Positions 58,981-63,988 of a DNA stretch of 64,000 nucleotides are shown piece by piece. The notes beneath the pieces were generated by a model. It did no database searches and was not told the origin of the DNA. It saw only the letters and a list, made by a program, of their open reading frames with translations. This DNA is from Peredibacter starrii (lineage in GTDB: Bacteria > Bdellovibrionota > Bacteriovoracia > Bacteriovoracales > Bacteriovoracaceae): contig NZ_CP139487.1 in the NCBI RefSeq assembly GCF_034259205.1, positions 248,001 to 312,000 of the forward strand. The letters run 5' to 3'. The position numbers and the translations under genes were made by a program. Positions within the stretch are counted from its first letter, which is position 1. Each line of letters opens with the position of its first letter.

Positions 58981-59151
58981 TTATGTTGTGCCCTTATCAA
59001 AGTTCTTCTTAATAGTGTCCGCTGCGCCAGAGTAGTTCTTATTCTTTAAATCTTCTTTTATTTTTGTTTTATCGGCCTCGGATGTTTTGTCCCACGCCTT
59101 TTTAACTGTCCCTTTGATGCCACTAATGTTTCCTTTTAATGCTTCATCCAT
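58981..59151 (-). CDS. Small charged protein of unknown function
   Basis: 56 residues: MDEALKGNISGIKGTVKKAWDK...ADTIKKNFDKGTT, lysine-rich and probably helical. GGGAGG lies five bases before the ATG, a strong ribosome binding site, and a -24/-12 sigma-54-type promoter lies 50 bp upstream (59201-59216). The start GIKGTVKKAW resembles the CsbD pattern of KG-x-W-K spacing, but homology is not clear. It belongs to the small stress-type gene set in this part of the window. The 477-bp gap 58912-59388 holds only this gene, its promoter and the start region of the next. Confidence 0.7.
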   Translation of the reverse strand: MDEALKGNISGIKGTVKKAWDKTSEADKTKIKEDLKNKNYSGAADTIKKNFDKGTT

Positions 59152-59200
59152 ATATCCCTCCCTGTTGGTTATGAGGGCCTAGGGCTCTCAATAAACAAGC

Positions 59201-59216
59201 AGCAGCTTTCATGCCA
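59201..59216 (-). promoter_or_regulatory. Sigma-54 (-24/-12) promoter, small protein gene
   Basis: On the minus strand TGGCATGAAAGCTGCT matches TGGCACG-N4-TTGCW with GG and GC separated by ten bases. The transcript would begin near 59189, about 38 bases before the small-protein ATG at 59151. Confidence 0.65.
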
Positions 59217-59388
59217 TAAGAAGTCATAGAAAACTCTGAAGTTTGGGTCATTTTACCCTTTGGTACTAAACCTTTAACCTATCTAAATTCAAAGGCTTAG
59301 GTCTGTATAAAGCTTAGACATTGATATAAAAACTTCAAAATCAGGTATTCATTCCGAATGCCATTATCTTCATCGGTAGAATACAACT

Positions 59389-60171
59389 ATGAATTTCACC
59401 AAGCTGTTAGTGCTTCTTGTGCTCTCAACTTTACTCGCTTCCTGCGGGCAAAATTCTAATGGCAAAAAAATCATTAGTTTAAATAGTGAAGAAATGAACA
59501 AAATGATGTCAGAGCAAACTTTCGAGTGTGCTTCTGAAAACGGATCCAACTGTCCAGATGGAATTGCCCGTCTCTTCGTAGTGAATGAAGAAGATCCAAC
59601 CAGGTCATCTGTCTGTTCTGGATTTCTAAACGGTGACAATCGTCTTGTTACCAACAACCACTGTCTCTCAACTCTTTCTCAGTGTAAGGCGACTTATATT
59701 TCCATTTACAGCAGCAAAGGCCTTGAGACCGCTCGATGTAAGTCAATTATCCATACAGAAGTTGATGGTAAAACTTTAAACCAGAAGGCCGTCGATTTCA
59801 CCGTTCTCGAGCTGGATCATAAGATTCAAAATTCAAAACCACTACCAGTCGCAAAGAGGCAGGCCTACCAAGGCGAAAAACTCATCGCATGGGTGGTGGA
59901 TCAAATCAATAATCGTCAGGCGAGAATTACAGAACTTAATTGTAATCTCAGTCGTAAGGCAAAATCTCTTGAGTTACAAAACTGCCCGGTTATTTCAGGC
60001 AACTCTGGTTCACCAGTTTTAAATGAACAAGGTGAACTTTCCGCTCTTATCTGGGGATCGACTGCAGATGAGACAGTCAACGAAGAGACATCGTTGTTTG
60101 AACGTCGAAGCCTAAATGAATATGCCTTTGCCACTGACCTCAAACATTTTCTTAAATATCTCATCAAATGA
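59389..60171 (+). CDS. Lipoprotein trypsin-like serine protease
   Basis: 260 residues. Lipoprotein signal MNFTKLLVLLVLSTLLASC (Cys19). The catalytic triad of the S1/V8-like fold is His91 in LVTNNHCL, Asp136 in AVDFTVLELD and Ser206 in SGNSGSPVLN. Paired cysteines (CASENGSNC, VCSGF, HCL, QCK) suggest disulfides, consistent with a periplasmic or surface location. TAGAAT at 59377-59382 is exactly six bases before the ATG, pointing to a leaderless transcript. Its stop overlaps the PEP carboxylase start (ATGA), an unexpected partnership for a secreted protease. Confidence 0.9.
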   Translation: MNFTKLLVLLVLSTLLASCGQNSNGKKIISLNSEEMNKMMSEQTFECASENGSNCPDGIARLFVVNEEDPTRSSVCSGFLNGDNRLVTNNHCLSTLSQCKATYISIYSSKGLETARCKSIIHTEVDGKTLNQKAVDFTVLELDHKIQNSKPLPVAKRQAYQGEKLIAWVVDQINNRQARITELNCNLSRKAKSLELQNCPVISGNSGSPVLNEQGELSALIWGSTADETVNEETSLFERRSLNEYAFATDLKHFLKYLIK

Positions 60172-62462
60172 GCCCGGTCATAGCCGATGATTTAAAGATC
60201 ATCGTTTCCAAGGCAGTCAAGCTTCTGGGGCTTGCTATTAAAGATATCTATGGTGAGACTCACTTTCAGAAAATAGAAGATTTACGTCTGAGAATGAAAG
60301 CGGTCCGTGGAAAAGAAGGCCCAATTGTTGAAGAGGCGCTTAAATCCGTCTATGCCGAACTCAGCAAATCCCCGAATGAAGAACTTCATCAAATTGCGAA
60401 GGCCTTCTCCCTCTTGCTGGAGCTCATTAATGCCTGTGAGGCCGCTTATCGATCTTATCGTTTGGAAAGTTTTGACGTTAAGAGTGAAGGCAAAAAACCT
60501 CATTCCTTAGTTTTTGTTTTTACCAGCCATCCAACCGAGGCGCGCAGTCATAATTTCTTACGACTCATGGACAAGGTAGAAAATCTCCTTATTCTGAGTT
60601 TAAATACCACTTTTGAAAGCGTGGAAGAACAGCTTCGGTATTTATTCAGAATCGCCCTTAGGCTCAATCTCGCTAATAACCGTAGACCTCAGGTCAAAGA
60701 CGAGGCGGAACAAATCTACCACGTCGTTTTAGATCCAAAGATTTTATCCGAACAAATTTATCTTAAGCGAAAAGGCATTAATGTACTTTTTAGGACCTGG
60801 GTCGGTGGAGATAAGGATGGGCATCCTAAAGTAGGTCCCCTTACGATGCAGCAGAGCTTGAATCTTTCACGTCGAAAGATTCTTGGTTGTATCAAGTACC
60901 GGCTGGATACTTATAAGGAAGAAGTTCTGTGGGCCGATGAAACTCTTCAGAGAGATTTTGTATCTCTCAATGAAGATCTTCGAAAGCTCAATACTGTTGG
61001 GACAGCAGATGGAAAGAAGGTTGTTGCCTTCAAAAAAAGATTCGAAGCTTTTTTAGATAAGACTCAGAAGAAAAAATTAAATTCTCCTGCGCTTGAAGAC
61101 ATTAAAGAGCTCATCTGGATTTACCCTGCTTTGGTTTTACCTTTGGAAATCAGAGAGGATCAGGGACTTATTCATGAGGCGCTTAAAAAACCGAAGCTGG
61201 CCATTGCCCAGATGTTGTTACTGCTTAAAAAAATCTCAAGTGGATTTGAACCTAAGTGGTATGTTCGCGGCTTCATCATTAGTATGTGCCAAACTCCTGA
61301 AGATCTTCTGGCCGCAGTAAAGCTCACTAAAAAGATGACAGGTTCTTATCTTATTCCTGCGGTCCCTTTGTTTGAAAACGAGAAAGGACTGACTCATGCT
61401 ATTCACATTTTAAGAGAAAGTTTCAAACAAGAAGCACTTGCCCAACACCATATTAAAACCTGGGGCAGTCGCTACGAGGTGATGCTGGGCTACTCCGATT
61501 CTAGTAAAGAAAATGGAGTATTACCGGGAAGAATTCTGGTTGAAAAGGCCCTGCTTCTTTTAGAAGAATTTTTGATAAAGCATAAACTTACCCCTGTGTT
61601 CTTCCACGGCTCTGGCGGAAGTGTTAGCCGCGGCGGTGGCTCTATTAAAGAGCAAATAGCCTGGTGGCCCCAAACAGCACTTAATATTTATAAAGTCACA
61701 GTTCAAGGTGAGACGGTTCAGAGACACTTCCATCAACCACTGATCATGCGCTCACAAGTCGGAAAGATTGTGGAAGAGTTTGCCAACTACCATCCCCGAA
61801 CGATTGTAAGCTGTGAGGCCATTCCAAAATTCACAGCGGAGATTCAAACCGCTTATCGCGATTTGGTTAATAACCCGGACTTTCAGAATTTGGTCTCTCG
61901 GGCGACTCCCTATGACTTCCTGAATCTACTCAAGATTGGATCAAGGCCAACGAAGCGCTCTGGTAAAGGTCAATTCACTATTCGAGCGATTCCCTGGATT
62001 CTTTGTTGGACTCAAACACGTTTACTTCTTCCTATTTGGTGGGGGATTGGTCGCTCATGGGCCACACTGACTGATTCGGAGAAAGAAGATCTGAAGGTCT
62101 ACTTTGCCAAATCCCCTCTTATGCAGACTTATATTAAAAACCTGGGATTTACTTTCGCTAAGATTGAATTGGGTGTTTGGAATTTTCATGTAGAGCATTC
62201 GAGTCTCACGAAGGAAGAAAAACTATATTGGCGTACAACCATTGAGGAAGAACTCAAGCGAAGTATTGTTTTCTTCAATGAAATTTCCGGTGAAACAAGC
62301 TTCACCTGGTTCCGTCCTCAGTTGGGAGAAAGTATTTATTTTCGTTCCAGTATGATCCATCCCCTGAACGTGATTCAGAAAATTTCACTCGCAAGAAAGG
62401 ACAACGTTCTCCTGAGAGAAACTGTCACCGGTATAGCAAGTGGAATGCTCACGACAGGTTAG
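60168..62462 (+). CDS. ppc: Phosphoenolpyruvate carboxylase, short form
   Basis: 764 residues, clearly shorter than the usual 870-960. Family motifs: FVFTSHPTEARS (about 116-127), WVGGDKDGHPKVG, MLGYSDSSKENGVLPGRI, FFHGSGGSVSRGGG and RAIPWILCWTQTRLLLPIWWGIG, and the C-terminal VTGIASGMLTTG that matches the usual GxAAGMxNTG ending. It fixes bicarbonate onto PEP to form oxaloacetate. The loop usually written FHGRGGxxGRGG here has HGS and VSR, so the first arginine and a glycine are changed while the second arginine stays. Translation is coupled to the upstream serine protease. Its stop overlaps the convergent csbD-like gene by 4 bp. Confidence 0.92.
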   Translation: MSPVIADDLKIIVSKAVKLLGLAIKDIYGETHFQKIEDLRLRMKAVRGKEGPIVEEALKSVYAELSKSPNEELHQIAKAFSLLLELINACEAAYRSYRLESFDVKSEGKKPHSLVFVFTSHPTEARSHNFLRLMDKVENLLILSLNTTFESVEEQLRYLFRIALRLNLANNRRPQVKDEAEQIYHVVLDPKILSEQIYLKRKGINVLFRTWVGGDKDGHPKVGPLTMQQSLNLSRRKILGCIKYRLDTYKEEVLWADETLQRDFVSLNEDLRKLNTVGTADGKKVVAFKKRFEAFLDKTQKKKLNSPALEDIKELIWIYPALVLPLEIREDQGLIHEALKKPKLAIAQMLLLLKKISSGFEPKWYVRGFIISMCQTPEDLLAAVKLTKKMTGSYLIPAVPLFENEKGLTHAIHILRESFKQEALAQHHIKTWGSRYEVMLGYSDSSKENGVLPGRILVEKALLLLEEFLIKHKLTPVFFHGSGGSVSRGGGSIKEQIAWWPQTALNIYKVTVQGETVQRHFHQPLIMRSQVGKIVEEFANYHPRTIVSCEAIPKFTAEIQTAYRDLVNNPDFQNLVSRATPYDFLNLLKIGSRPTKRSGKGQFTIRAIPWILCWTQTRLLLPIWWGIGRSWATLTDSEKEDLKVYFAKSPLMQTYIKNLGFTFAKIELGVWNFHVEHSSLTKEEKLYWRTTIEEELKRSIVFFNEISGETSFTWFRPQLGESIYFRSSMIHPLNVIQKISLARKDNVLLRETVTGIASGMLTTG

Positions 62463-63016
62463 TGACGAGCGTTCTTTTCACTCCGGTCAAAACTTCCAGG
62501 TTTAAATGATCCAGGTTGAGGAGTTGAGGAATCCTTGATTTCATCCTCAAAAATTTCCTCGGACTCATCTTGCTTTTTAATGTCCAGTCTTTCTCTGCCA
62601 GGATTTGCCCCTGAATAATTTGAATGATGCTGAGGATCTTCAATTTCTTCGTGACTTGCCTGATATGTTTTACTTTCAAACTCACTTCGCTCCTTCGAAC
62701 GCGTATTGAATTCTTCTACATCATCTTCAAGTTGAGATTGGGCGGAAGTTCGGTCTTCAATCGGACTTCGCTGATAAGATGATCGATCTGGATCAAAATT
62801 TTTATCTGAAGGATTATCAAAAGAATCCATCAATTGATCTAGTTTGGATTTAATCTCAGTGCGGGTTTCACCATAACGCTCTTCCACTAAACCACTGACC
62901 TTATGAAGATTTCCTTTTAATTGTTCTAATTCATCGTCAGAAATTCTTCCCCATAAATTTCTAATACCACCCTTTATCTCTTTCCATTTTCCTCTAAATT
63001 GTTCTTCGCTCAACAT
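62459..63016 (-). CDS. CsbD-family stress protein with long acidic tail
   Basis: 185 residues. Residues 1-65 are a CsbD domain (FRGKWKEIKGGIRNLWGRISDDELEQLKGNLHKVSGLVEERYGETRTEIKSKLDQ), a small helical protein family induced by general stress. The 120-residue tail is acidic, serine-rich and probably disordered (EDDVEEFNTRSKERSEFESK, DESEEIFEDEIKDSSTPQPGS), unlike the standard CsbD, which has no such tail. AAGGAGGG precedes the ATG. A -24/-12 promoter at 63048-63063 drives it, divergent from the gene at 63124. The tail might condense DNA or protect proteins; inferred only. Confidence 0.85.
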   Translation of the reverse strand: MLSEEQFRGKWKEIKGGIRNLWGRISDDELEQLKGNLHKVSGLVEERYGETRTEIKSKLDQLMDSFDNPSDKNFDPDRSSYQRSPIEDRTSAQSQLEDDVEEFNTRSKERSEFESKTYQASHEEIEDPQHHSNYSGANPGRERLDIKKQDESEEIFEDEIKDSSTPQPGSFKPGSFDRSEKNARH

Positions 63017-63047
63017 AAAACCCTCCTTGGATACTCATACAGTGCAA

Positions 63048-63063
63048 AGCATATTTGGTGCCA
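63048..63063 (-). promoter_or_regulatory. Sigma-54 (-24/-12) promoter of the csbD-like gene
   Basis: Minus strand TGGCACCAAATATGCT, matching TGGCAC-N5-[TA]TGCW with ten bases between GG and GC. The transcript would begin near 63036, about 20 bases before the ATG at 63016. Confidence 0.65.
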
Positions 63064-63070
63064 AAAACCG

Positions 63071-63086
63071 TGGCATAAAATTTGCT
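63071..63086 (+). promoter_or_regulatory. Sigma-54 (-24/-12) promoter of the 63124 gene
   Basis: TGGCATAAAATTTGCT matches TGGCAC-N5-TTGCW with the exact GG-N10-GC spacing. It lies seven bases from the opposing csbD promoter, forming a compact divergent control region. Transcription would begin near 63098, about 26 bases before the ATG. Confidence 0.7.
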
Positions 63087-63123
63087 CCTGTAATTCCATG
63101 ACCCATTACAAATAGGAGGATGT

Positions 63124-63384
63124 ATGAGCCGTAAGACTGGTGCAAAAGAAAGAAAAACACACACTGAAAAGGTGCTTAAGAATATGAATAAAAACGCTCA
63201 AACGGCCTCTCCGGTTGTGAAGAGTAAGGTTTCTAGCAACGTAGATCCTTCACTTAAAGATCAATACAACGTGATTAGAAAAGACCTATTGAAACTCCGC
63301 GAAGACCTTGCAAAGGGTTACGATATGACAAAAAATCTTGTTGAAAAGAAAGGTCTTTGGAAACAAATTTTAAGCGCGAAATAG
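63124..63384 (+). CDS. Small basic protein of unknown function
   Basis: 86 residues, strongly basic and helical: MSRKTGAKERKTHTEKVLKNMNKNAQTASPVV...QYNVIRKDLLKLREDLAKGYDMTKNLVEKKGLWKQIL. TAGGAGGATGT precedes the ATG. It has its own sigma-54-type promoter, divergent from the csbD-like gene, so it is probably part of the same response. An intrinsic terminator follows at 63398. No family is recognised; the residues resemble a DNA- or membrane-binding helix bundle only in general composition. Confidence 0.75.
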   Translation: MSRKTGAKERKTHTEKVLKNMNKNAQTASPVVKSKVSSNVDPSLKDQYNVIRKDLLKLREDLAKGYDMTKNLVEKKGLWKQILSAK

Positions 63385-63397
63385 TTGACCTTTACTC

Positions 63398-63426
63398 AGA
63401 GCGGAAGTCATATTCCGCTCTTCTTT
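63398..63426 (+). terminator. Terminator after the small basic protein gene
   Basis: AGAGCGGAA (63398-63406), loop GTCATA, TTCCGCTCT (63413-63421), then a T-rich tail to 63426. Confidence 0.9.
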
Positions 63427-63527
63427 TGTGTCATTCAGTCACATACATTACAAATATTGAGTGGAAGTTTGCCCCTAAAAATTCCCACATTTCTCCCTAA
63501 CTTAGTAAATTTTAAACGCACATATCT

Positions 63528-63543
63528 TGGCATGAATCCTGCG
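63528..63543 (+). promoter_or_regulatory. Sigma-54 (-24/-12) promoter of the DUF1328 gene
   Basis: TGGCATGAATCCTGCG keeps TGGCA, the ten-base GG-GC spacing and TGC. Transcription would begin near 63555, about 33 bases before the ATG at 63588. Nothing else is visible in the 203-bp gap 63385-63587 except the preceding terminator. Confidence 0.6.
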
Positions 63544-63587
63544 ATACCCTGAATGCGGGCCGTCTCTCTCAATACAAGGAGATAGTT

Positions 63588-63764
63588 ATGTTAAGAGCAG
63601 CAATTGCATTTTTTGTCCTGGGGCTGGTGGCCATTCTCCTAGGCGCCAATAACATTGGTGGGCTATCTGTTGATATCGGTAAAACCCTTCTCTTTATTTT
63701 CTTAATTCTTGCCGTCATTAGCTTCATTGCAAGCTTGGTCGTAGGTAAAAAGATCGTTAAATGA
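63588..63764 (+). CDS. DUF1328 (YtjA-like) small membrane protein
   Basis: 58 residues, two membrane helices: MLRAAIAFFVLGLVAILLGANNIGGLSVDIGKTLLFIFLILAVISFIASLVVG, closely matching the DUF1328 pattern (MLRWA...FG..GIAG...IAK.LFFIFL...I). AAGGAG lies seven bases before the ATG. Members are often induced under stress or in stationary phase; biochemical role is unknown. It overlaps a possible upstream start of the next gene by 3 bp and shares its sigma-54-type promoter. Confidence 0.88.
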   Translation: MLRAAIAFFVLGLVAILLGANNIGGLSVDIGKTLLFIFLILAVISFIASLVVGKKIVK

Positions 63765-63784
63765 ATCAGCAGAGAGGTTTTCAA

Positions 63785-63988
63785 ATGGACGTTAAAAACC
63801 ACTTTTTCCTGACATTCCTGGCGCTGTTTTTCCTGGGAGTGATTGTCACAAAACCAGGTGAAACATTTCAGCCAGCAAAAGAAGAAAGAGATTGTCGATT
63901 AGTGAAAGGAAAAATGGCGTGCGTCTATCACTACCATGAAGACAGAATTACCAGCACGATCGGCGAAGTACATTATCAATACAGATAG
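63785..63988 (+). CDS. Small membrane-anchored or exported protein of unknown function
   Basis: 67 residues from the ATG at 63785, which has AGAGAGG seven bases upstream; an in-frame ATG at 63761 overlaps the DUF1328 stop and would add eight residues, an alternative if translation is coupled. One hydrophobic helix (HFFLTFLALFFLGVIVTKP) then a short extracytoplasmic tail with two cysteines and a histidine cluster (DCRLVKGKMACVYHYHEDRI). Co-transcribed with the DUF1328 gene. No family is recognised. Confidence 0.6.
   Translation: MDVKNHFFLTFLALFFLGVIVTKPGETFQPAKEERDCRLVKGKMACVYHYHEDRITSTIGEVHYQYR

Follow-up and report, generated by a model that had tools for sequence, protein, structure and literature searches.

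A cluster of sigma-54-type promoters beside an NtrC-type regulator and a conserved structured RNA in Peredibacter starrii

Sigma-54 regulons are already known, as is the LuxU-LuxO-Qrr layout of Vibrio. Polymerase carrying sigma-54 is silent until it is acted on by an ATP-driven activator. CsbD (YjbJ) and DUF1328 (YtjA) are among the most widespread of the tiny stress proteins, and little is known of their roles. In other bacteria they are mostly members of regulons of the RpoS, SigB or a similar type, and a proteome study of RpoS in Salmonella reportedly names both families. In Bdellovibrio bacteriovorus two thirds of the attack-phase promoters of a promoter map were attributed to FliA, and this study of the attack phase makes no mention of rpoN (PMC3627812).

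We analysed a stretch of 64,000 nucleotides of Peredibacter starrii, here called the window (C1:248001-312000 of a 4.15 Mb genome in one contig), and read the genome as stretches around the elements described below. A search of both strands of the window for the exact pattern TGGCA-N7-TGC gives four matches, each with ten bases from GG to GC. The first, TGGCATGAAAGCTGC, lies at 59202-59216 on the minus strand before the gene of a 56-aa lysine-rich protein (58981-59151, minus). Two further elements are back to back with 7 bp between them, i.e. TGGCACCAAATATGC (63049-63063, minus) before csbD (62459-63016, minus) and TGGCATAAAATTTGC (63071-63085, plus) before the gene of an 86-aa basic protein (63124-63384, plus). 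The fourth, TGGCATGAATCCTGC (63528-63542, plus), precedes the gene of a 58-aa DUF1328 membrane protein (63588-63764, plus). From the GC end to the start codon there are 50, 32, 38 and 45 bp respectively, and a ribosome binding site and the correct orientation are found at all four. These sites had been proposed as sigma-54-type promoters in an initial annotation; they are real, with coordinates that agree to within one base, and the distances of 32-50 bp, the ribosome binding sites and the orientations given there were all reproduced. Clustering and position had been offered as the evidence. Their number by itself is weak evidence, since shuffling of the window leads to an expectation of 1.35 and gave four or more matches in 7 of 100 shuffles, while conservation in relatives gives the strong support. 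We note that the -24 elements of csbD and the 86-aa gene are so close that simultaneous occupancy may not be possible, and that the two promoters may compete.

The assignment of CsbD and DUF1328, made earlier by inspection, is borne out by Pfam scores of 41.9 bits (cut-off 40) and 34.7 bits (cut-off 27). The CsbD domain covers residues 6-56 and is followed by a long acidic tail. An open reading frame for a 75-aa peptide that contains two cysteines and is exported or anchored (63761-63988, plus) overlaps the DUF1328 stop codon and lies downstream of DUF1328 in most congeners, and the two are likely to share one transcript. The 56-, 86- and 75-aa proteins match no Pfam family above cut-off, and no known family was found in profile searches for the 86-, 75- and 232-aa proteins. 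Matches to the 86-aa protein occur in 19 genomes including this one, all within the genus and none outside it. In one BLASTP comparison the 56-aa protein shows a weak similarity to CsbD (E 0.002), and it is possibly a diverged CsbD-like protein; at the congeneric locus L065 the equivalent place is taken by csbD, likewise preceded by an element. Between the island promoters (window 59389-62462) sit a gene for a trypsin-like lipoprotein and a PEP carboxylase gene, the former overlapping the start of the latter by 4 bp, and neither has such an element of its own.

The initial annotation placed these genes in an island of 5 kb, which is too small. The island extends about 3.2 kb past the end of the window to a total of about 8 kb, and includes a regulator and a structured RNA. 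The sigma-54 interaction domain has 12 matches in the genome, one of them just past the window end. This belongs to an NtrC-type sigma-54 response regulator of 465 aa (L063:8439-9836 = C1:313439-314836, minus), found by profile search, the gene of which is reached 1.4 kb beyond the window end and lies among the island promoters. It has a receiver, a sigma-54 interaction (AAA+) domain and a Fis-type HTH, and an alignment of 22 sequences shows no variation in the phospho-acceptor aspartate of the receiver or in the FTGA of the loop that contacts sigma-54. Its neighbour encodes an HPt protein of 88 aa (L063:8180-8446 = C1:313180-313446, plus; Pfam Hpt 27.7 bits, cut-off 24.6), with the histidine motif H.LKG or H.IKG in 16 of 16 aligned sequences. 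A histidine kinase gene was not found next to the regulator. On the far side of the regulator is a second DUF1328 gene (L063:10007-10189) with its own element at L063:9944. A conserved inverted repeat, GGCAAAAATTCC..GGATTTTAGCCCC, covers the ribosome binding site at the start of the regulator gene (L063:9837-9868) and could mediate autoregulation.

Most of the genes recur in the congeneric loci L064-L080 with their order kept. The element upstream of csbD is present in all 16 placeable loci of the genus including this one (14 exact, and two with CGGCA). An exact element precedes DUF1328 in 12 of 17 loci and is absent from the other five, and the second DUF1328 gene has an exact one in five of six. 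The 86-aa gene has an exact element in six loci, in five of which this element and the csbD element stand back to back, a pair shared with L064, L068, L069 and L070; in many other loci a TGGT or CGGCA variant is found. Outside the genus an element occurs at five of eight readable DUF1328 copies, compared with 2.3% of random 120-bp stretches, the search expression for these promoters missing a number of copies. Loci L316-L318 and L321, from another genus in the family, bring together elements and the genes for HPt, DUF1328 and the same regulator (73% identity), and csbD joins the cluster in most of these.

Upstream of many such promoters, at 50-54, 71-75 or 93-95 bp, there is a near-dyad of the form GGAA-N4-RCCNC. 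The candidate enhancer of DUF1328 is the 13-base near-dyad GGAAGTTTGCCCC (63463-63475, plus), conserved in the genus and 52 bp upstream of the -24 element. There are two occurrences of the pattern GGWAGNNTGCCCC in the genome, and GGAATAACACCCC, which is related to GGAAGTTTGCCCC, sits upstream of the structured RNA. In all genomes with a match at the promoter in question, the dyad lies 50-52 bp (DUF1328) or 72-74 bp (RNA) from the -24 element, and the repeat at the start of the regulator gene is also a dyad about 93 bp from the element of the second DUF1328 gene. The classes are some 21 bp apart, about two helical turns, a stepping expected of enhancer sites. A profile was built from the DUF1328 and RNA promoters and tested mostly on promoters outside that set. 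For 34 of 39 promoters its best match fell at one of the distances 49-55, 71-75 and 91-95 bp, a count that includes non-independent orthologues and uses distance classes noticed afterwards; several of the 39 scores do not reach the 95% level for random matches (8.9). The composite pattern GGAA-N4-RCCNC-N47..77-TGGCA-N7-TGC has 30 matches in 129 genomes of the family, compared with one for the mirrored control. New matches in other genera lie before CsbD-like ORFs (L329 and L330) and an Hsp70-like ORF (L328), as assigned by eye. At three loci of another genus (L325, L326 and L327) enhancer and element lie upstream of a conserved, ORF-poor stretch (GGAACGYAARGCARAAG..TTTTGCRCAAG) that is possibly a second RNA family.

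Phased upstream sites are therefore found for DUF1328, the second DUF1328 gene and the RNA, but the profile scan found no strong dyad for csbD or the 86-aa gene in this genome. The 56-aa gene has a tentative candidate, GGGTCATTTTACCC (59245-59258, profile score 11.0), lying 28 bp from the -24 element and outside the main phase classes. One or more of the other activators represented by the 12 domain matches might drive csbD and the 86- and 56-aa genes, leaving the island regulator with DUF1328, the second DUF1328 gene and the RNA. We consider this division possible but doubtful. In the other genus csbD adjoins the regulator gene, and at one locus there (L317) a dyad precedes the csbD element by 51 bp; moreover the gene order is conserved, and enhancers can work across several hundred bases. 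Strong in-phase dyads in this genome are found almost only in the island, so that the regulon of this activator is probably small.

A further element, at C1:313017-313031 on the minus strand, is followed by no ORF with a ribosome binding site until a methyltransferase gene 181 bp on. A covariance model places a conserved structured RNA in this space (L063:7857-8006 = C1:312857-313006, minus), directly after the element. The predicted fold has a stem GCTAAC/GTTAGC around a hairpin GTCC-GAAT-GGAC together with unpaired ACCTGCAC, followed by a terminator hairpin. The outer stem varies on both sides between genomes, e.g. TGGCCAAC/GTTGGCCA. For 18 scored pairs in 14 genomes 95.6% of cells are paired, with double changes in 15 pairs. 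The covariation score is 0.477, compared with 0.253 for shuffled alignments (reached in 0 of 500) and 0.120 or less when the pairing is slid. Of 26 congeneric genomes 17 contain a single match to the model, and 103 other genomes of the family contain none; three of the 17 copies were outside the training set, and the element lies before the RNA in all three. An Rfam search with the RNA matched no family. Judged from its sequence, the RNA has the attributes of a trans-acting small RNA, with its own promoter, a conserved fold and a terminator. The unpaired ACCTGCAC could pair with targets, and ACCUGCAC could likewise be a target-pairing stretch. At L075, L077 and L078 the RNA is kept while HPt is absent beside the regulator, with only remote homologues elsewhere; the idea that HPt and RNA are lost together was dropped on this account.

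The terminator of the RNA lies just upstream of the methyltransferase gene (L063:7008-7835, minus) in the same orientation, as it would if the RNA were a 5′ leader or attenuator of that gene instead of a free small RNA. We regard this as improbable. A conserved -10-like box (TATGCTA or similar) separates the terminator from the gene, and three genomes (G006, G002 and G022) keep the gene without the RNA, two of them (G006 and G002) having a box that is similar. A small RNA that ends at its own terminator is the reading that we adopt. The methyltransferase shares up to 76% identity with proteins of Betaproteobacteria, and its matches in named genomes are mostly from Betaproteobacteria; this likeness suggests horizontal transfer.

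Over the whole genome TGGCA-N7-TGC has 135 matches, compared with 98 for the mirrored pattern, and a pyrimidine following TGGCA (TGGCAY) gives 87 compared with 46. An ORF start with a ribosome binding site lies 15-80 bp downstream of 37 of these 87, compared with a mean of 10.3 and a maximum of 17 in 200 trials of random placement, and with 9 in the wrong orientation. This enrichment before starts in the correct orientation points to a genome-wide set of sigma-54-type promoters. Many of the elements precede very small proteins; others, read by eye, precede a flagellar rod/hook-type gene and an OsmC-like gene. RpoN itself is encoded by a single copy (212.8 bits) with the RpoN box ARRTVAKYRE. 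Six elements have no close ORF led by a ribosome binding site (C1:912990, C1:1111793, C1:199063, C1:918243, C1:468022 and C1:1159344, i.e. L026, L252, L003, L027, L016 and L253 respectively) and are candidates for more small RNAs. Two of the six are identical, TGGCACGAATCCTGC.

In several genomes the site at DUF1328 is a perfect palindrome, TGGCA-N7-TGCCA, that matches on both strands, as might be expected of an operator for a dimeric factor acting with the housekeeping polymerase. Elsewhere, however, the second half is TGCT or TGCA, so that the site is asymmetric, and its orientation tracks that of the gene. Moreover the distance to the start fits a -24/-12 promoter, RpoN and a sigma-54 activator of the island are present, and the dyads are in phase at enhancer distances, so we think such an operator very unlikely. 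Chance, which could give four or more matches in the shuffled window as often as noted above, was rejected as almost certainly wrong in view of the conservation, the statistics of starts and orientation, and the composite-element test.

RpoN control, as first suggested, is thus supported by the presence of RpoN, the conserved elements, the nearby activator, the phased dyads and the genome-wide enrichment. We consider it highly probable that the genes in the window form one end of a sigma-54 island of about 8 kb under the local HPt/NtrC-type regulator. In the mechanism that we propose, a housekeeping promoter probably drives expression of the regulator. The signal of a kinase would pass through HPt to give the phosphorylated regulator, which would bind the GGAA-N4-RCCNC dyads upstream of the -24 elements, its AAA+ domain then opening the RpoN-polymerase complexes. 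The outputs would be csbD, the 86-aa gene, DUF1328 with the 75-aa gene, the second DUF1328 gene and an RNA of about 140 nt that ends at the terminator and would act in trans. csbD and the 86-aa gene may use a shared enhancer about 400 bp away, and this is the least certain step. Induction by stress is conceivable; the envelope or dormancy physiology suggested in the initial annotation would follow just from the family names CsbD and DUF1328.

If CsbD and DUF1328 do depend on sigma-54 in this lineage, their function could be probed under tight control. For a predatory lineage the island also yields a candidate activator together with the site to which it probably binds, a possible phosphorelay and a new RNA family.

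Comparison with known systems begins with LuxU-LuxO-Qrr of Vibrio, where an HPt protein, an NtrC-type regulator and a sigma-54-type small-RNA promoter are likewise grouped. LuxO has the closest solved structure to the island regulator. Nevertheless the regulator scores 377 bits, well below the LuxO equivalog cut-off of 800, and the lack of an Rfam match indicates that the RNA is not a Qrr. The island targets are mostly small stress-type proteins, and HPt is not always at the locus, which also differ from the Vibrio system. With the NtrC, AtoC and ZraR regulons the island shares a regulator built from receiver, AAA+ and Fis-type HTH domains, and phased dyad enhancers before -24/-12 promoters; yet the regulator falls below every named equivalog cut-off, and the targets are CsbD, DUF1328, small proteins and an RNA. 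The general stress regulons of RpoS and SigB co-regulate the same small stress protein families, but the island promoters are of sigma-54 type and require an activator. The attack-phase regulon of Bdellovibrio, from a related predatory lineage, also has small RNAs under an alternative sigma factor (PMC3627812), but the motif there is of the FliA type. In the literature searched we did not find such a combination, with these targets and RNA. It is an evenly balanced possibility that in Bacteriovoracaceae sigma-54 took over a stress module, and that the HPt/NtrC relay with its genus-specific small RNA is an independent circuit resembling LuxU-LuxO-Qrr.
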